Notes under the pieces: generated by a model
Databases searched by the model: none
Seen by the model: only the letters and a program-made list of their open reading frames with translations
What the model was told of the DNA's origin: nothing
Position numbers and translations under genes: made by a program
From: Chryseosolibacter histidinae
GTDB lineage: Bacteria; Bacteroidota; Bacteroidia; Cytophagales; Cyclobacteriaceae
Assembly: GCF_018598225.1 (NCBI RefSeq)
Contig: NZ_JAHESF010000005.1
Span: forward strand, 124,001-188,000
Reading direction: 5' to 3'
Length of the DNA stretch: 64,000 nucleotides
Shown here: piece after piece, positions 8,478 through 29,356 of the stretch
Layout: every line of letters begins with the position of its first letter
Position numbering within the stretch: the stretch's first letter is position 1

Positions 8478-9260
8478 TCAAAACCGATTACCGATCACCG
8501 CATACCGATTACCAGCTTCACCGGCTACCGCTTCCAGCACGCTTCTTTCATCTACCACCTTGCCGATCACGATCACCGCGGGCGAGACGATGCCATGGTC
8601 TTGCGCCAGTTGTACAATATCGGCAGGGGTGCCGGTAACGATCTTTTGTTGTGGCAACGTAGCCTCCTGGATCAGGGCCATAGGCTCGGCTGCCGAACGT
8701 TCTTTCATAAAGAGTGCAGCGATCTCCTTCAGGTGCGAGACGCCCATTAAAATGATCACGGTGGCAGAAGATCTCGCGGCAAGCTGAATATCGTGCGACA
8801 TTTCACCTGACGACAATGTGCCGGTGATCACCCAGAAGCTTTCATTCACGCCCCGTTTCGTCAACGGTATGCCTGCTGCCGTGGGCGCTGCAATGGCGCT
8901 GGAAATACCGGGGATCACTTCCACTTCCACACCCGCGCGCATGGCGTATGTCAGCTCCTCATGCCCGCGCCCAAAAACATTCGGGTCGCCTCCCTTCAGC
9001 CTCACCACGTGTTCGTACCGCATGGCATAGAATACCAGCAGCCTGTTGATCTCTTCCTGGGCAAATTCCTTTTTGCCTTTTCGCTTGCCTACATAAACCA
9101 GCTTGCATCCCTGGGGAGCATAATCCAGCAGCGCTTTAGAAACCAATGCGTCGTAAAGGATCACACTGGCTTGCTGTATAACTTTCATGCCTTTGACCGA
9201 GATCAGCTCGGCATCTCCTGGCCCGGCACCAACAAGGGTCAACTTCCCGCTTCTTTTCAT
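8478..9260 (-). CDS. cobA: uroporphyrinogen-III C-methyltransferase (sirohaem branch)
   Basis: The SAM-dependent enzyme methylates uroporphyrinogen III to precorrin-2, the first step towards the sirohaem needed by NirB. The 260 residues carry LVGAGPGDAELIS (residues 9-21), VRLKGGDPNVFGRG, VIPGISSAIAAPTAAGIPLT and a late VIVIGKVV. It is a stand-alone SumT/CobA, not a CysG fusion. The last eleven residues (GNRYAVIGNRF) are encoded by an intergenic-type repeat that has run into the 3' end. It is divergent from nirB across a shared operator region. Confidence 0.94.
   Translation of the reverse strand: MKRSGKLTLVGAGPGDAELISVKGMKVIQQASVILYDALVSKALLDYAPQGCKLVYVGKRKGKKEFAQEEINRLLVFYAMRYEHVVRLKGGDPNVFGRGHEELTYAMRAGVEVEVIPGISSAIAAPTAAGIPLTKRGVNESFWVITGTLSSGEMSHDIQLAARSSATVIILMGVSHLKEIAALFMKERSAAEPMALIQEATLPQQKIVTGTPADIVQLAQDHGIVSPAVIVIGKVVDERSVLEAVAGEAGNRYAVIGNRF
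8479..8515. repeat. ACCGATTACCGATCACCGC-type repeat overlapping the cobA 3' end
   Basis: Near-tandem units ACCGATTACCGATCACCGC and ATACCGATTACC overlap the last codons of cobA. They resemble the other low-complexity intergenic families of this window. Confidence 0.6.
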
Positions 9261-9274
9261 AATCGTAGATAGGT

Positions 9275-9335
9275 TACGTAGTAAATTTACGTAAATTTGA
9301 CTTGACCGCTGAATATTTTTACGTATAATTACTTA
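9275..9335. promoter_or_regulatory. TACGTA operator cluster between cobA and nirB
   Basis: Three perfect TACGTA palindromes lie at 9275-9280, 9288-9293 and 9320-9325. The last is part of TACGTAT-AA-TTACTTA (9320-9335), a near-perfect inverted 7-2-7 arrangement of the kind NarL uses. The cluster is placed to act on both divergent genes. The same motif is clustered before narX and narK. Confidence 0.65.
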
Positions 9336-9368
9336 AAAAATGGTCAAAACATACTTAAATCGTTTGCA

Positions 9369-11870
9369 ATGAAGCGTGTAGTAGTCGTCGGAAATGGAAT
9401 GGTAGGTTATAAGTTTTGCGAAAAACTACGTAACCGCACGTCAGATCATGAACTCATTATATATGGAGAAGAGCCGCGGCCTGCATATGACCGGGTACAC
9501 CTCAGCAGCTACTTTTCCGGAAAGACCGCCGATGACTTGTTGATGGCGCCGGCATCATGGTACCAGGAGAACAATGTTACGCTGTTCACCGGTGAGCTGG
9601 TAACAGAAATTGACAGGAAGCACAAGACCATCAGAACCCATACCGGCAAAACCGACCACTACGATTACCTGGTGCTGGCCACTGGCTCCAGTGCATTTGT
9701 TCCCTCCATCGAAGGTGCAGAGCGCGATGGTGTTTTTGTTTACCGCACCATTGAAGACCTGAACCAGATCATGAGCTACGGCAAAAAGATCAAAAAAGCT
9801 GCCGTGATGGGTGGAGGACTGCTTGGCCTCGAAGCTGCTAAAGCGCTGATCGACCTGGGCCTGGAGACTCACGTGGTTGAATTTGCACAACGCCTCATGC
9901 CCCGCCAGCTTGACGATGCTGGTGCTGCGATCCTGGCATACAAACTTTCGCAGCTGGGCATCGCCATCAACACAGGAAAGAGCACTTCCAAGATCGAAGG
10001 TAACGGAAAGCTTGAAGCCCTTTATTTTACAGATGGCACTGTGTTGCCGGTAGAAATGCTGGTGATCTCTGCGGGTATCCGCCCCCGCGATGAAGTGGCA
10101 AAATCCTGCGGACTGAACGTTCATGCCCGCGGTGGTGTAATTGTCGACGACTCGCTGCGTACCAGTGATGAAAATATCTTTGCCATTGGCGAGGTGGCTG
10201 TCCATAACAATATGGTGTACGGACTTGTGGCGCCGGGCTATGACATGGCGGAGTGTGTGGTGCGCGAGATCGTGGGAGAGACTCCTAAATTGTTTACTGG
10301 ATATGATATGTCTACCAAGCTCAAGCTGATCGGTGTGGACGTAGGCAGCTTTGGTGATGTTTTCGGAGACACTCCTGGTAGTATTCCCATCGCCTTCCAG
10401 GATAAACGCAACGGTGTTTATAAGCGCATCAACATCTCGGCCGATGGAAAATATCTGCTGGGTGGAATTTTGGTAGGCGATGCCGCGCAGTATAACCTCT
10501 TTCACCAGATGGTGGTGAACAAGATGCCCCTGCCCGCGCAACCGGAATCGCTCATCATCGGCACACCGGGAAAAGCGGCAGAAGGTGCCGGCGTAAAAAG
10601 TCTTCCGGGCACGGCGCAGATCTGCTCCTGCGAAAATGTGTGCAAGGACGACCTTGTGACGCAGATCACCGAAAAAGGTGTTAAGACCATTCAGGAGCTG
10701 AAGAAAAATACGAAAGCGTGTACAGGCTGCGGCGGATGTACACCCATGGTCAACGACATTCTGAAGATCACGCTTGAATCCATGGGCTTCAAGGTGAAGA
10801 AGAACCTCTGCGAGCACTTTGATTACACACGCCAGGAGCTGTACGATATCATTCGCGTGAAGGGTATCAAAGATTACGAAGCGCTGCTCAACAGCCACGG
10901 CAAAGGTGATGGCTGTGAGGTGTGCAAGCCTGCTGTGGCGTCGCTGCTGGCCAGCATCTGGAATGAGCTGATCTCGGAGCAGGACACCATTCAGGATACC
11001 AACGACCGCTTTCTGGCCAACATTCAGCGCGGCGGAACATACTCGGTGGTTCCGCGCATCGCAGGTGGCGAGATCACACCGGCCAAGCTCATGGCCATCG
11101 GCAGGATCGCTGAAAAATATAACCTCTATACGAAGATCACCGGGGGCCAGCGCATCGATATGTTCGGCGCGCGGGTAGACCAGCTCCCCGACATCTGGCA
11201 GGAGCTGATCGCCGAAGGTTTTGAAAGTGGTCACGCTTATGGCAAAGCGCTGCGTACCGTCAAAAGTTGTGTAGGCTCCACGTGGTGCCGCTTCGGTGTT
11301 CAGGACTCGGTTTCATTTGCCATCTTCGTCGAAGACCGTTACAAAGGCCTGCGCGCACCGCACAAGCTCAAAGGTGCCGTGTCAGGCTGCATCCGCGAAT
11401 GCGCCGAAGCACAATCCAAAGACTTCGGCATCATCGCCACAGAAAAAGGATGGAACCTGTATGTCTGCGGAAACGGTGGATCACATCCCCAACACGCCAA
11501 ATTGTTGGTGTCGGATGTTGACACGGATACCTGCGTGAAGCTGATAGACCGTTTCCTGATGTTCTACATCCGCACCGCCGATCCGCTCACCCGCACGGCA
11601 ACCTGGCTCAACAAAATGGAAGGCGGCCTCGAATACCTGCGTGACGTGATCGTGAACGACTCGCTCGGCATCGGCGAAGACCTCGAAAAAGAAATGCAGG
11701 GCCTCATCGACAACTACCAGTGCGAATGGAAAAAAGTGGTGGAAACACCCGAGCTCCGCGCACGCTTCAGGCACTTTGTGAACGACGAGAGCGCAGACGA
11801 AACACTTTCATTTGTGGATATGCGCGGACAGAAATGCCCTCCCGATTGGAATACAAAAACTACCAGATAA
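9369..11870 (+). CDS. nirB: NADH-dependent nitrite reductase, large subunit
   Basis: NirB reduces nitrite to ammonium in the cytoplasm with six electrons from NAD(P)H. Domains in order are an FAD/NAD-binding reductase (about 1-400, VVVVGNGMVGYKF at the start), a BFD-like [2Fe-2S] domain (CSCENVC near 417, then CTGCGGC), a nitrite/sulfite reductase ferredoxin-like half (about 550-620), and the sirohaem/[4Fe-4S] domain. The latter has the four ligands C634, C640, C674 and C678 in C-x5-C and C-x3-C spacing. The 833 residues are normal. nirD follows after 12 bases. Confidence 0.97.
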   Translation: MKRVVVVGNGMVGYKFCEKLRNRTSDHELIIYGEEPRPAYDRVHLSSYFSGKTADDLLMAPASWYQENNVTLFTGELVTEIDRKHKTIRTHTGKTDHYDYLVLATGSSAFVPSIEGAERDGVFVYRTIEDLNQIMSYGKKIKKAAVMGGGLLGLEAAKALIDLGLETHVVEFAQRLMPRQLDDAGAAILAYKLSQLGIAINTGKSTSKIEGNGKLEALYFTDGTVLPVEMLVISAGIRPRDEVAKSCGLNVHARGGVIVDDSLRTSDENIFAIGEVAVHNNMVYGLVAPGYDMAECVVREIVGETPKLFTGYDMSTKLKLIGVDVGSFGDVFGDTPGSIPIAFQDKRNGVYKRINISADGKYLLGGILVGDAAQYNLFHQMVVNKMPLPAQPESLIIGTPGKAAEGAGVKSLPGTAQICSCENVCKDDLVTQITEKGVKTIQELKKNTKACTGCGGCTPMVNDILKITLESMGFKVKKNLCEHFDYTRQELYDIIRVKGIKDYEALLNSHGKGDGCEVCKPAVASLLASIWNELISEQDTIQDTNDRFLANIQRGGTYSVVPRIAGGEITPAKLMAIGRIAEKYNLYTKITGGQRIDMFGARVDQLPDIWQELIAEGFESGHAYGKALRTVKSCVGSTWCRFGVQDSVSFAIFVEDRYKGLRAPHKLKGAVSGCIRECAEAQSKDFGIIATEKGWNLYVCGNGGSHPQHAKLLVSDVDTDTCVKLIDRFLMFYIRTADPLTRTATWLNKMEGGLEYLRDVIVNDSLGIGEDLEKEMQGLIDNYQCEWKKVVETPELRARFRHFVNDESADETLSFVDMRGQKCPPDWNTKTTR

Positions 11871-11882
11871 CGCAAGAAACGG

Positions 11883-12266
11883 ATGGAACAATTGAACGAA
11901 TTGAAGATCGCAACCACAGTGGAGACAGACAATCACACCTGGTTCAGGGCGGCACGTGTTGAAGATTTTCCGGCAAATGGTGGCGCCTGTGTGAAATATG
12001 GTGACCAGCAGATTGCTGTTTTTAACTTCACCAGACGCAACGAATGGTATGCCTGCCAGAATTTGTGTCCTCATAAAATGCAGATGGCCCTATCGCGCGG
12101 CATGATCGGCTCCCAAGAAGGCGAGCCCAAAGTTGCCTGCCCGTTCCATAAAAAAACTTTCTCTCTACGCAATGGCCAGTGCCTCAACGCCGAAGAGCAA
12201 AACATCACCGTATACCCGGTTAGGATCGAAAACGGCTTCGTTTACATCGGCGTCGCCAAACCCTAA
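11883..12266 (+). CDS. nirD: nitrite reductase small subunit, Rieske-type
   Basis: NirD partners NirB in assimilatory nitrite reduction. The 127-residue protein has a Rieske-like fold with C62-P-H64 (LCPHKMQMAL) and C86-P-F-H89 (ACPFHKKTF), so all four [2Fe-2S] ligands look present. To my knowledge, some enterobacterial NirD proteins have lost them. It is co-transcribed with nirB, and a perfect hairpin follows its stop codon. Confidence 0.94.
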   Translation: MEQLNELKIATTVETDNHTWFRAARVEDFPANGGACVKYGDQQIAVFNFTRRNEWYACQNLCPHKMQMALSRGMIGSQEGEPKVACPFHKKTFSLRNGQCLNAEEQNITVYPVRIENGFVYIGVAKP

Positions 12267-12267
12267 A

Positions 12268-12287
12268 CCTCCACCTGAAGGTGGAGG
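12268..12287 (+). terminator. perfect hairpin after nirD
   Basis: CCTCCACC-TGAA-GGTGGAGG is an 8-bp perfect stem with a four-base loop directly after the nirD stop. There is no T-run, so it may stabilise the 3' end or act as a weak terminator. Confidence 0.45.
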
Positions 12288-12317
12288 ACACTAAAATGCC
12301 AGGTCTCAACCCTGCAT

Positions 12318-12385
12318 TTTATCCTGTTCATCCTGTAAATCCTTTAATACTGGTGTTTTAATCCTGTACATCCTATTAATCATTT
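12318..12385. repeat. ATCCTGTAAATCC-type quasi-tandem repeat
   Basis: Units such as ATCCTGTTCATCCTGTAAATCC recur several times with small changes. The same unit occurs inside the 5' end of the PHP-family gene at 50.4 kb. Confidence 0.75.
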
Positions 12386-12394
12386 AAATCAGAG

Positions 12395-12412
12395 TACGTA
12401 AATTGCTACGTA
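12395..12412. promoter_or_regulatory. two TACGTA palindromes abutting the narX start codon
   Basis: TACGTA at 12395-12400 and 12407-12412 are 12 bases apart. The second ends one base before the ATG at 12414. This position suggests repression or autoregulation, or that translation starts further downstream than called. Confidence 0.55.
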
Positions 12413-12413
12413 A

Positions 12414-14261
12414 ATGAACTTAGATTTCATTTCTGAGAACAAACTGAAGTTCAACCGGTTCAGTAAACTGGGGATGTGGTATATCCTTGCCCTGAGCGTG
12501 ATCGCCACCATCGCCATTGTAGGGCAGGTGCTGATCCAGCGTCACCTGCACAGTCAGGTAAGTGATTCGCGGGTGGTGAACCTGGCCGGTACCCAGCGTT
12601 ATAAAAGCCAGTGGATCGTCAAGATGTCACTGCTGCTTACCGCAGACCTGGAGCACAAACATTTTCCCGATAAGATCAAAACGCTGGAGAACCTGCTTGA
12701 GCAGTGGAAGCGCGGCCACTATGGACTGCAACATGGCGATGAGGGGCTGAACCTTCCGGGCGATAACAGCGAGCAGATAACGCAGATGTTCAGCGACCTC
12801 GAACCTTATTTTCAGCAGGTTTACAACAGCGCCACGGCCATCATCCAATACAAAAAAGAAGCACACCCTGACACCGCGGCGCTGCATCAGGCCATGCGCA
12901 CCCTGCTCGACAATGAAACGGTGTTCCTGCAGAAGATGGACCACATCGTTTTTCAGTACGACCAGGAGGCGCGCCAGAAAGTAGCCATGCTCAGCAAGCT
13001 TGAATATTTTTTGCTTGGCATCTCCATTCTGGTGATCGGCCTGGAGATCCTTTTTGTTTTCCGACCCACTACGGTTCAGGTGAACCGCACCATCAACCAG
13101 CTGATGTCTTCCGAAAAAAATGCGCGCAAATTGTCGAAAGAGATCGGCGCGCTGTATACATCACTGGAAAAATCATATGAGCAGATCTCCATCGTGAACC
13201 AGCCGGTGGAGAACCCGAGGCTTTACGCGAAAGCCGACAAGGGTGGGAACGTGACCTTTATTACGGAAGCGCTGGCTACACTTTCCGGGCAAAAGGCCAT
13301 TGAAGCCAACATGCGCCTGTCGGACCTTTTTCCAGGTATGAACAATCCTGATGAGTGGATGGACGAGATCGTGGACGTGCTCTCCGAAGGCGGAACCTGG
13401 CAGGGCGAGATCCGATTTGAAGGCCCCCGCGAAAAGATCTGCTGGGTAGAGGTGATCATCACGCCGGTATATCACAACCACGACAACAGCATTGAAGAGC
13501 TGGTGCTGATGGGGGCTGACATCACCAAACGTAAGGAAGCGGAGCAGAACATGAACCGCAAGAACAGGGCGGAGATCGAGAAGAAGATCAACCAGCAGAA
13601 GTTTCGCTCGGTGCTGATCCTGGAAGGGCAGGAAGAAGAGCGCAAGCGCATCGCCATGGACATCCATGACGGTATTGGCCAGATGCTCACGTCCCTGAAA
13701 TTCCAGATCGAGTCCATCGACCTGAAAGAAGGTGCGCAGGCACAGCAGAAGATCGGTGAGATCGAGCAGCTGATCAAGGAGGTGATCAAGGAAGTACGCA
13801 GGGTGACCTTCAACCTGAAGCCTACTGTACTCGGTGACTATGGACTGCAGGCGGCGCTGAATGTCTTCATCCAGGAAATTGGCAAGCTGACAGATATCAA
13901 ACTGGTGTATCGAACCTCAGGCGAGATCGAGAGGCTCCCCCAAAAAACAGAAGACAATATCTTCCGCATTATTCAGGAGGCGATCAACAACGCTATCAAA
14001 TATTCCGGCGCCGAAGTGATCACGGTAGACCTGAAGAAAACAGGCAACGACCTGTTGATCACCGTGCACGACGAGGGCAGGGGGTTTGATACGAAGCTGG
14101 TGGAGGCAAGGAATATGAACATTGAATCGGGCCGCGGATTTTTCAATATGTACGAGCGTACAGAATACATCAACGGAAATTTGACGATAGACTCAGCGCC
14201 CGGCAAAGGGACCACCGTGTTGCTGACGGTACCCGTAAGAAGTTTGGCAACAGCAGAATGA
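12414..14261 (+). CDS. NarX-like nitrate/nitrite sensor histidine kinase
   Basis: This is a membrane sensor of 615 residues. TM1 spans about 21-40 and TM2 about 196-216, enclosing a periplasmic helical domain of the PilJ/NarX type. Just after TM1, VVNLAGTQRYKSQ (54-66) closely resembles the NarX P-box that binds nitrate. A PAS domain (about 265-385) leads to a HisKA_3 dimerisation domain, with phospho-accepting H418 in MDIHDGIGQ, and a HATPase_c domain (about 500-610, with DEGRGFD and GRGFFNMYERT). It is followed after 10 bases by its likely partner, a NarL-type regulator. Confidence 0.9.
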   Translation: MNLDFISENKLKFNRFSKLGMWYILALSVIATIAIVGQVLIQRHLHSQVSDSRVVNLAGTQRYKSQWIVKMSLLLTADLEHKHFPDKIKTLENLLEQWKRGHYGLQHGDEGLNLPGDNSEQITQMFSDLEPYFQQVYNSATAIIQYKKEAHPDTAALHQAMRTLLDNETVFLQKMDHIVFQYDQEARQKVAMLSKLEYFLLGISILVIGLEILFVFRPTTVQVNRTINQLMSSEKNARKLSKEIGALYTSLEKSYEQISIVNQPVENPRLYAKADKGGNVTFITEALATLSGQKAIEANMRLSDLFPGMNNPDEWMDEIVDVLSEGGTWQGEIRFEGPREKICWVEVIITPVYHNHDNSIEELVLMGADITKRKEAEQNMNRKNRAEIEKKINQQKFRSVLILEGQEEERKRIAMDIHDGIGQMLTSLKFQIESIDLKEGAQAQQKIGEIEQLIKEVIKEVRRVTFNLKPTVLGDYGLQAALNVFIQEIGKLTDIKLVYRTSGEIERLPQKTEDNIFRIIQEAINNAIKYSGAEVITVDLKKTGNDLLITVHDEGRGFDTKLVEARNMNIESGRGFFNMYERTEYINGNLTIDSAPGKGTTVLLTVPVRSLATAE

Positions 14262-14271
14262 AACGACAACT

Positions 14272-14931
14272 ATGGATAAAATAAATATTGTGCTTGCAGA
14301 TGACCACGTGCTGGTGCGTAAGGGCATTAAGGCGATGCTTGAGTCGGAAGCCGATATCAACGTGATCGGTGAAGCGGGCAATGGTAACGAGGCGCTGGAG
14401 TCGGCCCGCTCGCTGAAGCCCGACATCCTGGTGCTCGATATCCGCATGCCTGAGATGACGGGCCTGGAAGCCGCGGCCAGGCTGAAGCAATATGCCCCCG
14501 ATACCAAAGCCGTGATCCTCTCCATGCACGATTCAGAAGAGTACGTGCTGCAGGCGCTCGATGCCGGCGCGTATGGCTACCTGCTGAAGGATACAGACAA
14601 GCATGAATTTGTGAAGGCGCTGAAGCAGATCCATGGCGGCAGCAAATATTTCAGCGGCGCTGTCTCTAACATACTGGCCAACCAGTTGCTCAATGCAAAG
14701 CCTCATGTGGTTCGCAACACCGCGCCTGCAGAAGACCCCTACCGCCTCACCCGCCGAGAAAAAGAAATTTTGCGCATGGTGATCGACGGAAAGCACAACA
14801 AAGAGATCGCCGACACGTTCTCGAAGAGTGTGCGCACCATCGAAACCCACCGCTTCAACATCATGAAAAAGCTCGATGTCAACAACGCCATCGACATGGT
14901 GAACAAAGCCGTGAAAGAAAATCTGGTGTGA
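14272..14931 (+). CDS. NarL/FixJ-family response regulator
   Basis: A receiver domain (residues 4-120, phospho-acceptor D56 in LVLDIRMPEM, K105 region LLKDTDKHEF) is joined to a LuxR/NarL-type HTH domain (about 155-213, LTRREKEILRMVIDGKHNKE then TIETHRFNIMKKL). The 219 residues are standard. It is co-transcribed with the NarX-like kinase and sits amid nitrate genes. It is the best candidate to bind the nearby TACGTA clusters. Confidence 0.92.
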   Translation: MDKINIVLADDHVLVRKGIKAMLESEADINVIGEAGNGNEALESARSLKPDILVLDIRMPEMTGLEAAARLKQYAPDTKAVILSMHDSEEYVLQALDAGAYGYLLKDTDKHEFVKALKQIHGGSKYFSGAVSNILANQLLNAKPHVVRNTAPAEDPYRLTRREKEILRMVIDGKHNKEIADTFSKSVRTIETHRFNIMKKLDVNNAIDMVNKAVKENLV

Positions 14932-15457: not shown

Positions 15458-17044
15458 ATGCTTACAATACAGGATATCACCTACGGACATCCGGGCCAGG
15501 ATGTGCTGTTCGACAACATCAGTTTCACCATCAACAAACACGAGAAGGTTGCTCTCGTTGGCAACAACGGCGTTGGAAAATCCACGCTGCTGAAAATTAT
15601 TGCCGGTACTTTGCAACCATCGGGCGGACGGGTGGAGCGAACCTCAACACCGTATTACATTCCACAACTGTTCGGACAATTCAACGACCTCACCATTGGT
15701 CAGGCGCTTCAGATCGATCAAAAATTAAAGGCGCTGAACGAGATCCTCGACGGCCACGCCACAGAATCGAACCTGGCGCTGCTCGATGATGACTGGACCA
15801 TCGAATCGCGGTGTCACGAAGCCTTAACCTATTGGGGACTTTCAGACCTTGACCTCATACAGAAAATGGGGTCATTGAGCGGTGGACAAAAAACAAAAGT
15901 GTTCCTGGCTGGTATCCTCATTCATCAGCCTGAGATCGTGCTGCTGGACGAACCCAGCAATCACCTCGACACCGGCAGTCGCGAGCGCTTATACAATTTT
16001 GTACGATCTGCGTCCGCTACCCTGGTGGTGGTGAGTCACGACAGAACATTGCTGAACCTGCTTGACACCGTTTACGAGCTCAGGAGGCAGGGTATTACCA
16101 TGTATGGCGGTAACTATGATTTTTACGCAGAACAAAAGCAGGTTGAACGCAATGCCTTGCATGAGGACGTGAGAAGCAAGGAAAAAGAATTGCGCAAGGC
16201 AAAGGAGGTTGAGCGCGAAACCGCCGAGAGAAAGCAGAAGCTCGATGCGCGTGGAAAGAAAAAGCAGGAGAGAGAAGGGCTTCCTACCATCTCCATGAAC
16301 ACGTTCAGGAACAATGCCGAAAAGAGCACGGCGCGTCTCAAAGGTGCCCATGCCGACAAAGTGCAGGGCATAGCACAGGCGCTGAACGAATTACGAAGCA
16401 CACTTCCCGGCACAGAAAAGATGAAGTTCGGCTTTGACGACTCGTCGCTTCACAGCGGCAAGGTGCTGGTGGAAGCGGACGCCATAAACTTTGGATACAA
16501 CGGTCAGATGTTGTGGAACGCGCCGATGAGCTTTCAGGTAACCAGTGGCGAACGCATCGTCCTTAAAGGTTCGAACGGTTCAGGCAAAACAACGCTGATC
16601 AAAATAATGCTGGGAGAAATGGAGCCGACGGCCGGTACCATCCGCCGTGTGGTGGACAGAGCGGTGTACATCGACCAGGATTATTCATTGATCAATGATC
16701 AGCTCAGCGTCTATGACCAGGCGCTGACATTCAACTTCACGGCATTACAAGAGCACGAGGTGAAGATCAGGCTGAACCGGTTCCTGTTCACAAAAGATTT
16801 CTGGGACAAACCCTGCAGCACCCTGAGCGGTGGCGAGAAGATGCGGCTGATGCTCTGCTGCCTCACCATCGGCAACCAGGCCCCTGACATCATTGTGCTG
16901 GACGAGCCCACCAACAACCTCGACATCCAGAACACGGAGATTCTCACCGGCGCCATCAATGAATACAGCGGAACACTCATCGTGGTGTCGCATGACCAGC
17001 ATTTTCTGAAGGAGATCAATGTAAAACGAGTAATAGAACTCTAA
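15458..17044 (+). CDS. ABC-F family ATPase (ribosome-associated)
   Basis: The 528-residue protein has two ABC ATPase domains and no membrane segments. Walker A motifs are GNNGVGKST (about 34) and GSNGSGKTT (about 371). Signature motifs are LSGGQKTKV and LSGGEKMRL, and Walker B/D-loop motifs are LLDEPSNHLD and VLDEPTNNLD. The charged linker of about residues 225-275 (EKELRKAKEVERETAERKQK) matches the ABC-F P-site tRNA interaction motif region. Family members act in translation or antibiotic resistance by ribosome protection; which role applies here is not visible. A 13-bp hairpin follows the gene. Confidence 0.93.
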   Translation: MLTIQDITYGHPGQDVLFDNISFTINKHEKVALVGNNGVGKSTLLKIIAGTLQPSGGRVERTSTPYYIPQLFGQFNDLTIGQALQIDQKLKALNEILDGHATESNLALLDDDWTIESRCHEALTYWGLSDLDLIQKMGSLSGGQKTKVFLAGILIHQPEIVLLDEPSNHLDTGSRERLYNFVRSASATLVVVSHDRTLLNLLDTVYELRRQGITMYGGNYDFYAEQKQVERNALHEDVRSKEKELRKAKEVERETAERKQKLDARGKKKQEREGLPTISMNTFRNNAEKSTARLKGAHADKVQGIAQALNELRSTLPGTEKMKFGFDDSSLHSGKVLVEADAINFGYNGQMLWNAPMSFQVTSGERIVLKGSNGSGKTTLIKIMLGEMEPTAGTIRRVVDRAVYIDQDYSLINDQLSVYDQALTFNFTALQEHEVKIRLNRFLFTKDFWDKPCSTLSGGEKMRLMLCCLTIGNQAPDIIVLDEPTNNLDIQNTEILTGAINEYSGTLIVVSHDQHFLKEINVKRVIEL

Positions 17045-17060
17045 CCACGAACCGAGATAA

Positions 17061-17094
17061 AACCCTTTGAGGGCTCTTAACCCCTCAAAGGGTT
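17061..17094 (+). terminator. strong hairpin after the ABC-F gene
   Basis: AACCCTTTGAGGG pairs perfectly with CCCTCAAAGGGTT across an 8-base loop. The T-run after it is weak (ATTAAG). A similar AACCCTT...AAGGGTT hairpin follows the gene ending at 19503. Confidence 0.6.
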
Positions 17095-17239
17095 ATTAAG
17101 TAGGGTCGCCGGTTTCCGGGTGACATCGGAGTCTCCGGTCTCCGGGACTCCGCGTTCTTGGGTGAACTAGGCTATGTATGATAATGTGCTTATCTTGAAT
17201 AAGATGTTACATTGAAAACGATAGTTGAATTTAACTGGA

Positions 17240-18259
17240 ATGAAACGATATATCTTCAGTATTTTTTTTGCCATTGTCATCGTCGGGTTGTACCACTTTG
17301 TTAATATCAATCTCTTCAGCCTGGATTTGACGAAGCGGACGAGAGAAGCGCTATTCGTTGTCAGAAACGAACCCGATATAGACGATGCACTGTTGTTACT
17401 TAACATCGGACGACTTGAACCCGATGAGCTTGCCGCTAAAATTGACTCCTTATTGATTACCGGAGTGCCGAGAATAGGGGTCAACCTTTGCCATTTTGAT
17501 AAAGTGCCTAAAGGTCTTATTGCACGATACAGGGAAAACGACCGGGTCATATTTGCAAATTGTGATAGCTCCCAGCCCGGAGCACTTAGTCAGATCGTTG
17601 GCGACGGTAATGCCGTCACACATTTTAAGACTGACAGATCTGATTATTTTGAATTGCAGCTAACAGGATTTACGGGCAGGGGAAATGACTGGGAACGAAT
17701 TAATTACGGAGTAAGATTGGATTATAGGCTTAAAGGCGAACTGAACAATTCTTATTATTGGTTCGATCCCGATTACCTGGAGAACAAGACTGTCCTTCTC
17801 GGTTATATGGGAGAATACGTAACGGACGAGATCTATTATTTCAAAAATTGCAGAATAACACCGCTGAATCCATATTATGGAGCGGAGGAGGATGTACTGC
17901 CTGATATGTATGATATCGAGATTACGGCCAATATCATTAGAACAATTCACCATAACGATTTTATTAATGAGGTTAACCAGGTAGTCAGAGTTCTCATTGT
18001 GTTGGCTATCTGTATGATTAACGTCATCGTTCTTACATACGCAAAAACAAGATGGATAGTCGTCAATCTTGTGATAGCAACAGTTCTTTTTGTACTGTTA
18101 ACAGGAGCCGCGTCATTCCTTCTGGTGTACATGTTCGATAAAAGATATTTTTTGTCTCTGGATGAGCTCCCGTTAATCCTGTTGGTGACTACTTTTTTTA
18201 CAGTTGCGTTGAATATCAGCCAAAAACCGTTCGAAACTCCCGAAACATCAAAGGGTTAG
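17240..18259 (+). CDS. CHASE2-like membrane protein
   Basis: The protein has 339 residues from the ATG at 17240; an in-frame TTG at 17225 is less likely. A single N-terminal TM (about 4-22), an extracytoplasmic domain of some 230 residues, and three closely spaced C-terminal TMs (about 250-270, 275-303 and 312-332) give the layout of CHASE2 sensory modules. No cytoplasmic output domain follows, so it is either a stand-alone sensor/structural protein or a partner of another protein. The DNA looks more A+T-rich than its nitrate-gene neighbours. Confidence 0.6.
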   Translation: MKRYIFSIFFAIVIVGLYHFVNINLFSLDLTKRTREALFVVRNEPDIDDALLLLNIGRLEPDELAAKIDSLLITGVPRIGVNLCHFDKVPKGLIARYRENDRVIFANCDSSQPGALSQIVGDGNAVTHFKTDRSDYFELQLTGFTGRGNDWERINYGVRLDYRLKGELNNSYYWFDPDYLENKTVLLGYMGEYVTDEIYYFKNCRITPLNPYYGAEEDVLPDMYDIEITANIIRTIHHNDFINEVNQVVRVLIVLAICMINVIVLTYAKTRWIVVNLVIATVLFVLLTGAASFLLVYMFDKRYFLSLDELPLILLVTTFFTVALNISQKPFETPETSKG

Positions 18260-18351
18260 AAAAAAAACTGCCAATGAAACTGCACAAGGTCAGCCCAATC
18301 CTCTGGACAAAGGATCTCCACCAAAGCCATCATGTTGAGCGCTTCGAATAA

Positions 18352-18398
18352 CCCCGACAGGGGTTTGTCATCGCTAGCACCGGGTTTTAACCCGGTGC
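18352..18398. repeat. two hairpins in the 18260-18579 gap
   Basis: CCCC-GACA-GGGG (18352-18363) is followed by GCACCGGGTT-TT-AACCCGGTGC (18377-18398). The rest of this 320-base gap shows no gene or clear promoter. The hairpins belong to the dispersed 'CCCGAnnGGG ... CGGGTTTTAACCCG' family. Confidence 0.6.
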
Positions 18399-18579
18399 GG
18401 CGTTGACGTGACGTTTTAAAGGTACTAGCAGAGTCTCCCACGCTCCGGAACTCCGTCGCCCTTCGAAGCCGCCAGTTGGTACCTTCTTGTTTTTGTAGCA
18501 TATTCCTAAAAAATTCATGACAGCTATCGCCGGTTTTCGGATCATTGACATCATCATCATTCTAAATTCCAGTTTGACC

Positions 18580-19503
18580 ATGTATTCTCAGGACCACGAA
18601 ATCCAGGAGCTGTATGAAAAAGCAACCCGGAAAATTTCCCAGCAGCAAGTACTTGGCGGCTATGAAAAACCCGAGGGGTTGATCAAACTCGAAGAGCTTT
18701 CGGAGCGCAAAGTTGTCAACCTGGAAACGATCGGTTTCTTTCTTCACACTACAAAGCCTTATTTCCCGGCACCGGTTGATATTATTCCTTTTGCTTCAAC
18801 AGGAGGTGACGGATGTTATTTTGCGTTCGTAACGGATTTTACCAGTCAGCCCGATCTCGAAAATGCGCCGGTGCTTTTTGTCAGCCCAACAGATTTTGAC
18901 ACTAACAGGCCCAAGCAGTCCAATATTCTTTTTGCCGGGAATTTTAACGATTTCCTCAGCATCATGACAATGATATGGAATGCTGAGATCATCCGTTTCA
19001 AGGACGTTACGCAAATGAATTTCGATGAGGAAATAAAACGGATTCGCCATGGGTCCGGAGATGATGACGAGCGCGAGAAGACGATTCAGCTTCTTCACAA
19101 GAATTTTGCGCTAAAGAAGATCACCAACCTCAATCAGTACTACCGGTCACTCTACGAAGAAAGAGAAGCAGGCTATTTCATTAAAACCATCGATGGGATA
19201 GGTATCCGTTGCAAGCATGTGCCGGCAATAACCCCAAACGTTATCACCGCACCGGTCGACATTCAATCGCTGAGCGCAACTTTAGAAAAATTATCACCTG
19301 ACGAAAAGCTCCGGTTCTACAGAGAGGCGGCATACTTATATCCTTACCACGAAGATAGTTTTCTCAACATCCTCGAGATCATTTCAGGTCAGATGAAAAA
19401 AGACGGCTTGAACAGAGAGGCCGGCATCATTGATTTCGAAATTGCACAGACAAGGAACTTCAACGAATACCTCAAAGCGCAAAACAAAAAGCAGAAACGG
19501 TAG
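18580..19503 (+). CDS. unknown soluble protein, possibly SUKH-like
   Basis: The protein has 307 residues from MYSQDHE; an upstream ATG at 18517 would add a hydrophobic stretch but overlaps nothing conserved. The segment DIIPFASTGGDGCYFAFVTD followed by APVLFVSP and a NFNDFLSIM helix resembles the core of SMI1/KNR4 (SUKH) immunity-type proteins. I see no toxin gene beside it, so this is only a hint. The C-terminal half is helical and charged. A hairpin follows the stop. Confidence 0.55.
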   Translation: MYSQDHEIQELYEKATRKISQQQVLGGYEKPEGLIKLEELSERKVVNLETIGFFLHTTKPYFPAPVDIIPFASTGGDGCYFAFVTDFTSQPDLENAPVLFVSPTDFDTNRPKQSNILFAGNFNDFLSIMTMIWNAEIIRFKDVTQMNFDEEIKRIRHGSGDDDEREKTIQLLHKNFALKKITNLNQYYRSLYEEREAGYFIKTIDGIGIRCKHVPAITPNVITAPVDIQSLSATLEKLSPDEKLRFYREAAYLYPYHEDSFLNILEIISGQMKKDGLNREAGIIDFEIAQTRNFNEYLKAQNKKQKR

Positions 19504-19536
19504 AACCCTTCGAGGGTTTTAAACCTTCAAAGGGTT
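19504..19536. terminator. AACCCTT...AAGGGTT hairpin; start of a 359-base gap
   Basis: A 7-bp outer stem with an imperfect inner stem directly follows the stop of the preceding gene. The rest of the gap to 19862 holds no credible gene: one 80-codon frame beginning with TTG is proline-rich and featureless. It also holds one isolated TACGTA at 19592 and the operator cluster described next. Confidence 0.45.
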
Positions 19537-19766
19537 GTCCGAAACGAAGGGGCCAGTCTTCTATTCTCGCAAGGTCCCGAACAAAGGCATCTACGTAAGT
19601 CACACCTTCCCAATAACCCTACATAAACCTGACAAGCCAGCTACGATACAGCTACCATTTACCTACTGTCAGATAAATACGGTCCCCTTGAAACTTTGTC
19701 AGCCCCCAAATCAGCCCGGAAACGCAGAAAACCCCGAAATCACTCCATTATCTGCAATCGATTTTC

Positions 19767-19857
19767 TACGTAATTAAATCCGTTTCGTAAATTATTTTAC
19801 GTATAAATACGTAATTAAACACCTATTTACTTACTTTTATTACGTAACAAATACGTA
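19767..19857. promoter_or_regulatory. TACGTA operator cluster before narK, with a perfect 7-2-7 site
   Basis: Five perfect TACGTA palindromes (19767, 19798, 19808, 19841 and 19852) lie within 91 bases. Positions 19798-19813 read TACGTAT-AA-ATACGTA, an exact inverted 7-2-7 repeat. Positions 19841-19857 read TACGTAA-CAA-ATACGTA, a 7-3-7 version. The last palindrome ends five bases before the narK ATG. Confidence 0.7.
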
Positions 19858-19862
19858 GTAAA

Positions 19863-21221
19863 ATGACGCTTCAGGAATCAGGAAAAGCCACGAAAATCAA
19901 CCTGCTGGACTTCAAAACCACCCCCATGAAGGCCTTCCATATTACCTGGATCACCTTCTTTCTCTGCTTTTTCGGGTGGTTCGGTATCGCACCCCTGATG
20001 CCTGTAGTGCGTGAAGACCTTAACCTCACCAAAACGCAGATCGGCAACATCATCATTGCCTCGGTGGCCATCACCATTTTTGCGCGGTTGCTCTTCGGCT
20101 GGCTTTGTGATAAGATCGGTCCGCGCATCTCTTATTCCGTGTTGCTCATCCTGGGCTCAATCCCTGTTATGTGCATCGGCTTCAGCAACAGCTACGAAAC
20201 CTTTCTGCTGTTCAGGCTCGCCATCGGTGTGATCGGCGCTTCATTCGTGATCACCCAATATCACACCTCTGTCATGTTCGCGCCTAACGTAGTGGGTACG
20301 GCTAACGCTACTGCTGCTGGCTGGGGTAACATGGGCGGCGGCGCAACCCTCATCGTGATGCCGCTGATCTTTGCAGCATTCGTCGGTGCCGGTTATGCCA
20401 GCGCAGAAGCCTGGCGTTACAGCATGGTGGTGCCAGGGGCGGCCCTCTTCATCATGGGCTTCGTATATTATTTCTTCACAAAAGATACGCCGTCAGGAAA
20501 CATCACGTCACGTAAGGCCGAAGCTGTTGCAAAAGATAATTCGAAAGAAGGAAACTTCTGGGGCGTCTGCAAAGACTACAGGGTGTGGACCTTGTTCCTG
20601 GCTTACGGCGCCTGCTTCGGCATCGAGATCACCATCGACAACATTGCAACACTTTATTTTGTCGACAACTTCAAGCTTGGCATCGCCGAGGCAGGATTGA
20701 TCGCCGGCCTTTTCGGCATGATGAACATCTTCGCCCGCGCACTGGGTGGCATCTTCGGAGACAAGGCCGGTAAAAAATTCGGACTGCAGGGAAGGATCAT
20801 CACACTCAGCGCGTTCCTGCTGCTCGAAGGGTTGGGTATCATCATATTCTCCAACATGAGCACGCTGCCCTGGGCCATCGCCACCATGCTCATCTTTGCA
20901 CTGTTCCTCAAGATGTCAAACGGGGCCACGTATTCTGTGGTGCCTTTCATTAACAAACGTGCCATCGGTGTGGTGTCGGGTATTGTGGGCGCCGGCGGAA
21001 ATGTGGGTGCAGTGCTGGCGGGTATGTTGTTCACTTCCGAAGACCTCTCTTATCGCGAAAGCCTTTTCATTATTGGGGTCACAGTGATCGTTGTGTCTGT
21101 GATCTCTTTCTTATTAAGCCTGAGCAGGCGATCTGCGCAGGAGATCCTGTCGCCGGAATTTCACCCAGACACTTTGGGCGTGAAAGAGTCATTGGCTGTT
21201 ACTTCCCTTCGTAAACCTTAA
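19863..21221 (+). CDS. narK: nitrate/nitrite transporter, MFS NNP family
   Basis: This inner-membrane transporter has 452 residues and about twelve TM segments. The two family signature regions are visible: TAAGWGNMGGGATLIVMP in the first half and GIVGAGGNVGAVLAG in the second. The motif GWLCDKIGPRI after TM2 is MFS-typical. It heads the uptake and reduction genes that run to 30.9 kb. Import or exchange of nitrate and nitrite is known for the family; whether this copy is NarK1-like (symport) or an antiporter cannot be read from the sequence. Confidence 0.94.
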   Translation: MTLQESGKATKINLLDFKTTPMKAFHITWITFFLCFFGWFGIAPLMPVVREDLNLTKTQIGNIIIASVAITIFARLLFGWLCDKIGPRISYSVLLILGSIPVMCIGFSNSYETFLLFRLAIGVIGASFVITQYHTSVMFAPNVVGTANATAAGWGNMGGGATLIVMPLIFAAFVGAGYASAEAWRYSMVVPGAALFIMGFVYYFFTKDTPSGNITSRKAEAVAKDNSKEGNFWGVCKDYRVWTLFLAYGACFGIEITIDNIATLYFVDNFKLGIAEAGLIAGLFGMMNIFARALGGIFGDKAGKKFGLQGRIITLSAFLLLEGLGIIIFSNMSTLPWAIATMLIFALFLKMSNGATYSVVPFINKRAIGVVSGIVGAGGNVGAVLAGMLFTSEDLSYRESLFIIGVTVIVVSVISFLLSLSRRSAQEILSPEFHPDTLGVKESLAVTSLRKP

Positions 21222-25846: not shown

Positions 25847-28800
25847 ATGAGGTCAACGCACGATACGAGTTACAAAACCACCTGTTCCTACTGCGGCGTG
25901 GGTTGTGGGATAGTGATCAGGAAAGACCGGAAGAACAACCTGGTGCTGGAAGGCAATCCTGATCATCCTGTGAACAAGGGTATGCTGTGCTCCAAGGGCA
26001 TGAACCTTCATTATGCCATGCAGGACATGAGCGACAGATTGCTGTTTCCCGAAATGCGATGGAGCCGGAACCACCCGTTGCAGCGTGTGAGCTGGAGCGA
26101 CGCGATGAAAAGGGCCGCTGCCGTCTTCAGCGCCATGATCAAAACGTATGGCCCGGACTCCGTCGGTTTCTATGTTTCAGGACAATGCCTCACCGAAGAA
26201 TACTACGTGGCTAACAAGTTGGTGAAAGGTTTTTTAGGCACCAATAACATCGACACCAACTCCCGACTCTGCATGAGCAGCGCTGTTGCAGGGTATGCGC
26301 AGATGTTGGGTGAGGATGCTGTACCCGTAGCGTACGAAGATATCGAGCTGTCGGATTGCTTTTTGATTGCCGGAGCCAATCCCGCATGGTGTCATCCCAT
26401 TCTCTTCCGGAGGATCGAAGCACACAAACAGAAGAATCCGGAGGTGAAGCTTATTGTTGTTGACCCGCGACGAACACAGACGTGTGCTCTGGCAGACCTG
26501 CACTTACAGATCAATCCCGGCACCGACATCTATTTGTACAATGCCATTGTCCGCGTGCTCATCGAAAACGGCGAGGTGGATTACAATTTTGTTCGCGGTC
26601 ATACCGAACAATTCGAGCAGTACCGCGACTCAGTGTTTCAGCACACGGTAGAAGAGGCGGCAGAGAAATGTGATGTAAGCATTCACGATATTCAGCTGGC
26701 GGCGTCTTACATTGCTGCTGCCAAAGGTTTTCTCACCTTGTGGGCCATGGGTTTGAACCAGAGTGCTATTGGCGTGAAGAAGAATCATGCGCTCATCAGC
26801 CTGAATCTCGTCACAGGCCATATTGGTAAACCAGGCTCTGGTCCGTTCTCGCTCACCGGCCAGCCCAACGCCATGGGGGGCAGAGAGGTAGGAGGACTGG
26901 CCACGATGCTGGCAGCGCATCGCAGCCTCGCCAACGCACAGCACCGTGAAGAGGTGGCAAAGTTCTGGGGTGTTGATTCTATTTCAAGTAGACCGGGATA
27001 CACCGCCACCCAAATGATCGAAGCGCTGGAACGCGGCGAGCTCAAAGCCCTGTGGATCATCTGCACCAACCCGCTGGTGAGCTGGCCCGATGCGCGGCGT
27101 GCAGAGGCAGCGTTGGCCAATGCAAAATTTGTGGTCGTGCAAGATATTTCCCGCCGCTCCGACACGCTTCAGTTTGCAGACCTCATTCTTCCTGCGGCAG
27201 GTCACTTCGAGAAAGAAGGTACCATGACCAATTCCGAAAGGCGCATTACCCACCTCGATAAGATCGTCGACCCTCCCGGCGAAGCGCTTCCCGATGCAGA
27301 GATCCTTTGCCGGTTCGCGAAGGCCATGGGCTTCAAAGGTTTCGATTACACATCGGTGGAGGAGATCTATGCAGAACATTGCCGCCTAACGAAAGGAACG
27401 AATATCGATATCAGTGGACTCTCGTATGCGCGTCTACGGGCAGAAGGCTCTATGCAATGGCCGGTGCCTGAAGCAACGCATAGCGGCACCACGCGACTGT
27501 TCGCCGACCACGCATTTTATACGCCATCGCGCAAAGCAAAATTCTATCCCATCGATGCGGAGAACCTTTCGGCAGTACCCACACCGGAGCTACCGCTGAT
27601 CCTGACTACGGGAAGGATACGCGATCAGTGGCATACCATGACCAAAACTGGTAAGGTGAATCGCCTGCGTCAGCACATCGATAAACCATTCCTGGAGATC
27701 CATCCTGATGATGCGGCTGCCAGGAACATCGGCGAAGACGACGTTGTGGTGATCAGGAACGAGCAGGGCGATGTGCGCGTGCGTGCCCGCATCTCTGCCG
27801 AGATCAAAAGAGGTGTGGTCTTCCTGCCCATGCACTGGGGACGGATGCTAATGAAAGACGCCGCGCGCGCCAACAACCTCACCACCATGCTGGTCGATCC
27901 GGTCTCAAAAGAGCCCGATTTCAAATTCTCACGTGTGGAGGTTGAGCTATACCGGAAACCTGCCGAGAAGATCATCATCGCCGGTGCAGGAGCAGCGAGC
28001 TATCGTTTTTTGTGCAGCTACCGATCCCTGAACAGCGATGACGAGCTGCTGGTGATCTCTAAAGAAAAAGACCCGTTCTACAACCGTGTGCTGTTGCCTG
28101 AATATGTGAATGATACACTGTCGTGGGAAAAACTTCAGAAATTCAGGTCAGGAGAATTTGAAGCGCTCGATGTGTCGATGCAGCTCGAGAACGAGATCGT
28201 GGCCATCAACCGCGCAGAGAAATACATCATAGACAAGCGTGGCCAGAAACATGGTTATGACAAGCTCATCCTCGCCACCGGCAGCAGGGCCCACATTCCC
28301 AATGACGCGCCCATTCATCTGCCGGGCGTTTTCACGATGCGCACCCGGTATGATGCAGACCGCCTGAAGAATTACCTCAGTCCCAACGGACAGGTTTTGA
28401 TCATCGGTGGTGGATTGCTCGGACTTGAGCTTGCAGTATCGCTCCGCGACATCGACGTGCAGGTCTCCATTCTCCAGCTCGGCAGCAGGCTGATGGAACG
28501 GCAGATCGACAACCTCGCCGGACAGCTGCTGCTGGATTTTATTGAAGAGAAAAATATTACGGTATACATCAACGACCAGATGCAATCCGTGGAACAAGAC
28601 ATTGCCACCGGCAAGCTCAGCGCCTCGTTCCGCAGTGGTAAGATCATTCGTATAGACGCCATTGTATATGCGGTAGGTACAAGACCCAACATCGAGTTTG
28701 CACAGGAAGCCGGTGTTGAAACAGCGCGTGGTATTATTGTGAACGATCATCTTCAGACCAACGATCCCGACATTTTCGCCATGGGCGAGATCGCCGAACA

Positions 28801-29356
28801 CCGCGGCAAGGCCCTGGGCATCACATCGGCCGCTGAAAAACAGGCCGACATCCTCGCACGCTTTATCCATGGCGATATGCAGAGCCTTTACGATGGCGCT
28901 GTGCCCATGAACATCCTCAAGCTGTCGGGCCTGGACCTCTGCTCCATCGGCATCGCGGAGATCCCCGCAGATGATGACGACTATGAAGAGATCCTGTTCA
29001 TCGACAAATCGAAACGGTATTACAAAAAATGTATCATCAAGGACGACCGGCTTGTAGGTGCCATTCTGATCGGCGACAAGAGCGAGTTTGCCGAGTTCAA
29101 AACGCTGATCGAAGACAAGATCGAACTGTCCGAGCGCAGAATGCAGCTGCTGCGGTCAGGCAAAAAAACAGAGCCCATGCTGGGTAAGCTGGTCTGCTCC
29201 TGTAACCAGGTGGGCGCAGGCAACCTGCAGAAGCTGCTTGACGACGGTTGTACCGAGCTGGGCGACATCTGCCGGCGTTCAGGCGCAGGGCTGGGCTGCG
29301 GAAGCTGCAAGCCCGAGATCCAGCAGATGATCAGGGAAAGTTTAGTGAAAGTGTAA
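25847..29356 (+). CDS. fused assimilatory nitrate reductase (molybdo-catalytic + FAD/NAD(P)H reductase + BFD domain)
   Basis: This 1169-residue chain should reduce nitrate to nitrite in the cytoplasm. Residues 1-700 are a bis-MGD catalytic domain of the DMSO-reductase family, with [4Fe-4S] ligands C13, C16, C20 and C48 and the likely Mo ligand C142 (NSRLCMSS). Residues 703-1080 are an FAD/NAD(P)H-dependent reductase like NasB and the NirB N-terminus (KIIIAGAGAASYRFL; VLIIGGGLLGLELAVSL). Residues 1113-1160 are a BFD-like [2Fe-2S] domain (LVCSCNQVGAG ... GLGCGSCKPE). In many bacteria these functions are split between NasC and NasB. The gene ends three bases before the next one. Confidence 0.94.
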   Translation: MRSTHDTSYKTTCSYCGVGCGIVIRKDRKNNLVLEGNPDHPVNKGMLCSKGMNLHYAMQDMSDRLLFPEMRWSRNHPLQRVSWSDAMKRAAAVFSAMIKTYGPDSVGFYVSGQCLTEEYYVANKLVKGFLGTNNIDTNSRLCMSSAVAGYAQMLGEDAVPVAYEDIELSDCFLIAGANPAWCHPILFRRIEAHKQKNPEVKLIVVDPRRTQTCALADLHLQINPGTDIYLYNAIVRVLIENGEVDYNFVRGHTEQFEQYRDSVFQHTVEEAAEKCDVSIHDIQLAASYIAAAKGFLTLWAMGLNQSAIGVKKNHALISLNLVTGHIGKPGSGPFSLTGQPNAMGGREVGGLATMLAAHRSLANAQHREEVAKFWGVDSISSRPGYTATQMIEALERGELKALWIICTNPLVSWPDARRAEAALANAKFVVVQDISRRSDTLQFADLILPAAGHFEKEGTMTNSERRITHLDKIVDPPGEALPDAEILCRFAKAMGFKGFDYTSVEEIYAEHCRLTKGTNIDISGLSYARLRAEGSMQWPVPEATHSGTTRLFADHAFYTPSRKAKFYPIDAENLSAVPTPELPLILTTGRIRDQWHTMTKTGKVNRLRQHIDKPFLEIHPDDAAARNIGEDDVVVIRNEQGDVRVRARISAEIKRGVVFLPMHWGRMLMKDAARANNLTTMLVDPVSKEPDFKFSRVEVELYRKPAEKIIIAGAGAASYRFLCSYRSLNSDDELLVISKEKDPFYNRVLLPEYVNDTLSWEKLQKFRSGEFEALDVSMQLENEIVAINRAEKYIIDKRGQKHGYDKLILATGSRAHIPNDAPIHLPGVFTMRTRYDADRLKNYLSPNGQVLIIGGGLLGLELAVSLRDIDVQVSILQLGSRLMERQIDNLAGQLLLDFIEEKNITVYINDQMQSVEQDIATGKLSASFRSGKIIRIDAIVYAVGTRPNIEFAQEAGVETARGIIVNDHLQTNDPDIFAMGEIAEHRGKALGITSAAEKQADILARFIHGDMQSLYDGAVPMNILKLSGLDLCSIGIAEIPADDDDYEEILFIDKSKRYYKKCIIKDDRLVGAILIGDKSEFAEFKTLIEDKIELSERRMQLLRSGKKTEPMLGKLVCSCNQVGAGNLQKLLDDGCTELGDICRRSGAGLGCGSCKPEIQQMIRESLVKV

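Follow-up and report, generated by a model that had tools for sequence, protein, structure and literature searches.

The clusters of the word TACGTA in the nitrate island of Chryseosolibacter histidinae are in all likelihood operators of a nitrate-assimilation regulon run by the sensor kinase and response regulator pair encoded at 12414-14931, and the sites very probably are bound by the adjacent NarL-type regulator. Motif, spacing, target genes, and co-occurrence with the kinase were established by comparison of sequences. In the proposed mechanism, the periplasmic PilJ/P-box domain of the kinase would sense nitrate or nitrite as the presumed signal, the kinase would phosphorylate the NarL-type regulator, and dimers of this putative binder would occupy units of the form TAMGTA-N4-TACKTA. 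Half-sites placed at multiples of ~10.7 bp would align neighboring dimers on one side of the helix along the promoter. The window, i.e. the whole stretch of DNA analyzed, has a length of 64 kb, and all positions given without a locus number refer to it.

The nitrate island and its TACGTA sites

The main genes of the island were assigned as in the initial annotation (cobA on the minus strand, nirB, nirD, kinase, NarL-type regulator, and narK), and these assignments held throughout:

8478..9260, minus strand: cobA (uroporphyrinogen-III C-methyltransferase), with a divergent regulatory region common with nirB
9369..11870, plus strand: nirB
11883..12266, plus strand: nirD
12414..14261, plus strand: PilJ-PAS-HisKA_3 sensor kinase (NarX/NarQ-like, P-box VVNLAGTQRYKSQW)
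14272..14931, plus strand: NarL/FixJ-family response regulator, putative binder of the sites
19863..21221, plus strand: narK nitrate/nitrite transporter

Other genes of the island are a mobA-like gene, narM, a gene for an alginate-export-type porin, an nrtA-like gene, nrtB, nrtC, and a gene for a rubredoxin-containing protein. At 25847-29356, a NasC-type nitrate reductase is fused to a NirB-like pyridine-nucleotide reductase half with a BFD domain. Judged by gene families, the content (NasC-type reductase, NirBD, NarM, and NrtABC-like transporter) fits the earlier proposal of assimilation rather than respiration, and we infer that the island represents an assimilatory gene set. The region between narL and narK, on which the initial annotation was silent, contains an ABC-F gene and two unassigned ORFs without clear family (15458-19503). 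It looks like an insertion, because narK directly follows narL in Chryseolinea lacunae (L060).

The kinase carries a PilJ-type sensor domain (PF13675, 36.7 bits; cut-off 26.6) and a G-x-x-R P-box, which was also recognized in 70 of 71 readable orthologues. Among 74 kinases, the P-box was recognized in 64 by pattern and in 6 by eye, 3 were partial matches, and 1 (L058) was without it. By sensor domain and P-box, the protein is a putative nitrate/nitrite-sensing histidine kinase, and its P-box matches the nitrate-binding motif given in PMC8199190. The kinase of L058 is orthologous and lacks the G-x-x-R P-box, yet its locus has TACGTA clusters. For the PAS region, the PAS_9 score of 26.8 bits was just below the cut-off of 27, and an alignment profile matched PAS structures (best E 1.6e-24); no HAMP was found among the domain matches of the kinase up to E 0.001. 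With PAS present and HAMP absent, the kinase belongs to the PAS-bearing, HAMP-less class of nitrate/nitrite-sensing kinases described for Bacteroidetes (Flavobacteriales, Cytophagales) in PMC8199190.

The response regulator is composed of a receiver domain (PF00072, 104.1 bits) and a GerE/LuxR HTH domain (PF00196, 61.1 bits), which places it in the NarL/FixJ family. Its score for the E. coli NarL equivalog NF007935 is 158.4 bits at a cut-off of 250. Its HTH pattern S.RT.E.HRFN.MKK is conserved to at least 90% at each lettered position across 67 orthologues.

A word search of the window recovered each of the ten TACGTA words listed before, with starts at 9275, 9288, and 9320, at 12395 and 12407, and at 19767, 19798, 19808, 19841, and 19852. 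Two extra words adjoin these clusters, one just inside nirB (9427) and one at 19592, in the intergenic region that also contains the narK cluster. The window total is 23 words; base composition predicts 15.1, and Markov models of first and second order predict 4.8 and 9.2, respectively. The former estimate of one word per 4 kb by chance is right for base composition. In 5000 dinucleotide shuffles, the observed count was reached twice for 9261-9368 (3 words) and never for 12267-12413 (2 words) and 19504-19862 (6 words). The following features were assigned in these regions, without strand unless stated:

9275..9280: TACGTA half-site upstream of nirB/cobA; the word recurs before orthologous nirB
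9288..9299, plus strand: TACGTA half-site (9288-9293) and predicted nirB -7 box TAAATTTG (9292-9299), the final TA of the half-site being common to both
9320..9335: dimer TACGTATAATTACTTA (TAMGTA-N4-TACKTA), one of 2 in the 8.04 Mb genome
9352..9357: TACTTA half-site in the nirB leader
12395..12412: two TACGTA half-sites with 12 bp spacing, ending 1 base before the narX start codon; candidate autoregulatory site of narX
19767..19772: TACGTA half-site upstream of narK
19798..19813: perfect dimer TACGTATAAATACGTA upstream of narK, one of 2 TAMGTA-N4-TACKTA in the genome
19828..19857: half-sites TACTTA (19828) and TACGTA (19841 and 19852) upstream of narK

The 7-2-7 arrangement TACGTAT-AA-ATACGTA claimed for 19798-19813 is indeed perfect, and it is the sole exact TACGTAT-N2-ATACGTA in the genome of 8.04 Mb. 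The arrangement at 9320-9335 is also real, with the recurrent variant half-site TACTTA as second arm. With up to 2 mismatches, TACGTAT-N2-ATACGTA was found at 9 places in the genome and the pattern read backwards at 6, so that the looser 7-2-7 pattern alone is hardly enriched genome-wide. The unit TAMGTA-N4-TACKTA has 2 matches in the genome, at 9320 (nirB) and 19798 (narK), both within the nitrate island, and 1 match when read backwards. Before narX, repeats of type AATCCTGTANATCCT were observed at 12300-12390; with 19 occurrences in the genome and 0 for the reversed pattern, this looks like an interspersed repeat.

Conservation of the sites and co-occurrence with the kinase

The kinase served as query against 98 genomes (that of the window plus relatives), and its alignment as query against named genomes (best 80 of more). 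After removal of 2 duplicates from 76 loci, 74 loci with kinase orthologues were obtained from Chryseolinea, Olivibacter, Cyclobacterium, Algoriphagus, Flavobacterium, Polaribacter, Lewinella, and others; gene matches starting after query residue 60 were dropped. TACGTA words were counted within 250 bp before each gene.

The word was present before nirB in 62 of 65 cases, with 148 words in total versus 4.65 expected from base composition, and before cobA, which has its upstream region in common with nirB, in 29 of 30. It was also found before the porin gene (24/30), narK (19/26), narL (28/68), narX (20/71), nasC (12/45), and nrtA (4/23). Most nasC, nrtA, narX, and narL regions are without sites, perhaps because these genes are located inside operons. 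TACGTA was rare before nirD (3/67), nrtC (1/31), and nrtB (1/7), and none was found in the 250 bp before rubR (0/36), mobA (0/7), and narM (0/3) of the 74 loci. This comparison of upstream regions, which the initial annotation had proposed, revealed enrichment before orthologous nirB, narK, porin, narL, and some nasC genes. As for the three nirB regions without TACGTA, those of L072 and L080 carry TAAGTA-N4-TACTTA, and the "nirB" of L064 is a 23% match to another gene.

Clusters of at least two words numbered 134 in the 73 non-window loci, and 115 of them abut a gene of the nitrate set according to automatic labelling, a tally which is biased when taken alone because the loci are centered on the nitrate island. 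The remaining 19 clusters were inspected by eye: 7 are within coding sequence (of nirB, nirD, narL, or rubR), and 12 precede nirB, narK or a NarK-related gene, nasC, moaD, or an FNR-like gene. Of the six NarK-related proteins, two were compared with the NarK model and scored 186 and 190 bits, below the cut-off of 311.7. In three Lewinella relatives (L101:9334, L104:9265, and L106:9268), TACGTATACGTA is located inside the 3′ end of nirD, where it is probably coding and possibly also a site. The next gene after nirD is a DUF4202 gene in L101, and L104 has a similar-looking ORF.

An even draw of 296 genomes of the phylum contained 21 genomes besides the window's with a close nirB. TACGTA preceded nirB in 12 of the 12 kinase-bearing genomes versus 0 of the 9 kinase-less ones, i.e. 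those without a near full-length match (Fisher p = 3e-6); in the 12 positives, the kinase match was near full length in 11 and a partial match of 203 bits in 1 (G272). Among the relatives (29 non-window nirB loci), the corresponding counts were 20/20 and 0/9 (p = 1e-7), and both p-values ignore shared ancestry. Two kinase-negative genomes are common to both sets, resulting in totals of 32/32 versus 0/16, where several of the 16 (e.g. G063, G069, and G087) have a two-part, PAS-less-looking match beside nirB. The dimer was found before nirB in 30 of the 32 kinase-bearing genomes (not in G036 and G272) and in none of the 16 kinase-less ones; upstream of nirB in G122, there are 3 TACGTA words and one dimer. 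Three further kinase-bearing relatives outside the 32 (G034, G039, and G051), which complete a total of 23 such relatives with nirB, have TACGTA before nirB, too. Both positives and negatives (G018 and G032) are found in the window's own family, and several other families contain positives as well. The upstream enrichment, together with the fact that sites and kinase strictly go together among the genomes examined, supports the reading of the sites as NarL-type operators.

In Larkinella soli, Rhabdobacter, and Jiulongibacter, a PAS-less-looking kinase, with the match broken at the PAS region, is encoded beside nirBD, and no TACGTA was found before nirB in these three species. The operator code therefore goes with the PAS-bearing class. 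The kinases of the three species resemble the PAS-less Cytophagales nitrate sensors of PMC8199190, to which class they would presumably be assigned.

Exact TACGTA-N4-TACGTA sites were counted by hand, giving 33 in the 24 kinase-bearing genomes (own included) versus 32 in the other 74, and for the pattern read backwards 9 and 24, respectively. Of the 33 sites, 25 precede nirB/cobA, narK, porin, or nasC; one is found upstream of moaD and four upstream of an FNR-like gene. The other 3 are located inside a transporter-like ORF (L220, by eye), before a fumarate hydratase gene (L222), and before an isocitrate dehydrogenase gene (L223). Ten of the 32 sites in kinase-less genomes were viewed by eye and had no common gene; the 32 are taken as background. 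The isolated exact dimers L222:3001 and L223:3001, from two genomes of one family (G074 and G090), precede genes for class I fumarate hydratase and NADP isocitrate dehydrogenase, and may be due to chance or represent a link to 2-oxoglutarate supply. Six exact sites are present in G013 (L157 and five other places), a genome without near full-length kinase match or close nirB, where another regulator may use the same word.

The FNR-like gene encodes a Crp-family protein with clustered N-terminal cysteines, and four kinase-bearing genomes (L219:6833-7531, L225:2257-2970, L229:3035-3748, and L151:773-1534; the family was checked for L229 only) have a TACGTA dimer where this gene starts. This suggests that the nitrate regulator may have oxygen sensing under its control. 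Because several kinase-bearing genomes have sites next to the FNR-like gene, the sites could also belong to such a protein, or to another regulator travelling with the island, which we consider improbable. The window's genome has the sites but only 28-29% identical matches to the FNR-like protein, and in view of this absence of a close homologue the protein was rejected as binder. Moreover, an intact NarL-type gene could be read in 67 of these 74 loci with the kinase, and the kinase-negative nirB genes examined are without sites.

Proposed operator code and promoter geometry

TACGTA words are preferentially spaced at 10-14, 18-26, 30-34, 41-46, 51-56, and 62-66, and intermediate distances are rare or absent. 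The best spacing period was 10.7 bp (R 0.62), a value reached by 0 of 500 randomizations. Chance or base composition as the origin of the words, for which the A+T-richness of many regions and the 23 words in the window might speak, is hardly conceivable and is refuted by shuffles, cross-genome counts, helical spacing, and co-occurrence. The commonest distance was 10 (40 pairs), which corresponds to inverted heptamers with a 2 bp spacer. The partner 10 bp downstream of TACGTA was TACGTA (40) or TACTTA (35), and the partner 10 bp upstream was TACGTA (40) or TAAGTA (34); therefore, the unit reads TAMGTA-N4-TACKTA. This dimer was found in 57 of 65 nirB, 18 of 30 porin, and 14 of 26 narK regions, and in 0 of 151 regions of nirD, rubR, nrtC, nrtB, mobA, and narM. 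Its exact reversal was absent from the upstream regions of all 13 gene classes.

The E. coli NarL heptamer has the consensus TACYYMT with TAC outermost. The sites described here have G at position 4, and their asymmetric arms run TAAGTA-N4-TACTTA with TAC inside; the opposite order alone was found in 3 regions. Most half-sites give no orientation, as TACGTA itself is palindromic. An engineered E. coli narG 7-2-7 site, TACCCCTAAAGGGGTA, has TAC outside (PMC4549865) and thus the same frame and outer TA, but other inner letters. E. coli-type NarL 7-2-7 sites in which only the heptamer has diverged would account for the 16 bp frame, the TA at both ends, and the 7-2-7 spacing, and the best sequence match of the regulator among solved structures is NarL (1a04, E 4.6e-36), with VraR near-equal (7.4e-36). 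G instead of Y at position 4, the asymmetric arms, the core-promoter placement described below, and the phased arrays make this explanation rather unlikely. Of the "shifted heptamer" suggested initially, the 16 bp frame and the 7-2-7 spacing can be kept, whereas the code differs and consists of helically phased TAMGTA-N4-TACKTA arrays, with opposite polarity in the asymmetric variants.

In Flavobacterium psychrophilum, the -7 box TAnnTTTG extends from -12 to -5 (PMC9723704). TTTG was found at offset 8 from the TACKTA start in 65 cases and at any other offset in 21 cases at most; therefore, the TA of the half-site is the TA of the -7 box, i.e. the -12/-11 TA is shared. In these 65 overlap cases, conservation is seen for the left arm (-26 to -21) and not for a -33 element. 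A TTG located 22-26 bases upstream of the box was present for 5 of 65 target and 21 of 85 other boxes (Fisher p 0.008); the counts at a neutral distance were 3 of 65 and 10 of 85 (p 0.15). Further half-site centers are located around -35, -46, -57, -67, +7, and +20, and also at -24 and -14 (53 promoters, predicted starts).

The overlap of half-site and -7 box was present in 36 of 65 nirB regions overall. It was found for 33 of the 34 nirB genes of L071-L121 (mostly flavobacteria and some others, e.g. Lewinella) and only for 3 of the other 31, which belong to the window and its nearer relatives. From 133 dimers, 39 have the same offset to the -7 box, any other offset occurring at most 4 times, and 66 are without a nearby TAnnTTTG. 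The promoters of the window itself conform less well to this geometry: the half-site at 9288 overlaps the predicted nirB -7 box at 9292, and the best dimer is located downstream of the predicted start; at narK and narX of the window, no TAnnTTTG was seen.

Tentatively, these positions may be explained by a response regulator sitting inside the core promoter, with a dimer at ~-26 to -11 that has two bases in common with the -7 box and replaces the -33 element, and with a ladder of half-sites from ~-67 to +20. To our knowledge, such a core-promoter architecture is not known for NarL-family activators.

Direction of control and relation to known systems

We lean towards activation in response to nitrate, since the offset between dimer and -7 box is fixed in different genes, the -33 element is unconserved, and induction by nitrate is physiologically sensible; the depletion of TTG at -33 lends modest support. 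As the main alternative, the same regulator possibly acts on the same sites as a repressor, and the stacked dimers between ~-67 and +20 would exclude RNA polymerase until nitrate or the phosphatase state of the kinase lifts them. With respect to the predicted start, half-sites are centered at -24, -14, +7, and +20; these positions and the shared -12/-11 TA are consistent with repression, and E. coli NarL represses frdA from near-start sites, including a 7-2-7 site at -4/+6 (PMC4549865). However, the single preferred offset in different genes is more typical of an activator, and the -33 TTG is depleted, though the neutral distance also differs somewhat. In addition, it would be odd if nitrate shut off nitrate assimilation.

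With the enterobacterial NarX/NarQ-NarL/NarP systems, the pair encoded in the window has in common a P-box sensor, a HisKA_3 kinase, and a NarL-family regulator, and its sites are like the enterobacterial 7-2-7 NarL sites in having inverted half-sites in a 16 bp frame and in being connected to nitrate/nitrite gene control. In contrast to NarX/NarQ, the kinase of the window has a PAS-type region and no HAMP match. The sites differ from those of enterobacterial NarL by the unit TAMGTA-N4-TACKTA, by their location at assimilation genes, by the phased arrays, and by the core-promoter overlap in many species. Nitrate-sensor domain, PAS, and missing HAMP are features also of the Bacteroidetes kinases of PMC8199190; this work treats kinases of the PAS-bearing class, and Bacteroidetes operators or a regulon were not found in the available part of it. 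Among the literature matches listed (titles and abstract openings, with subscription journals mostly outside this scope), neither a description of operators of this kinase class nor anything on the control of nitrate use in Bacteroidota was found. Thus, the kinase class was already known, and the operator code proposed for it from sequence data appears to be new as far as we found.

Bacteroidota are major degraders in soil and marine habitats and a phylum with few genetic tools. The outcome of this study is a candidate regulator, an operator code, and a list of targets, all of which are testable in culturable strains, and the sites might provide a nitrate-responsive promoter part for Bacteroidota. 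The overlap of operator and -7 box raises a mechanistic question on the control at Bacteroidota promoters; if the tentative core-promoter arrangement holds true, it would serve nitrate genes across much of a phylum.
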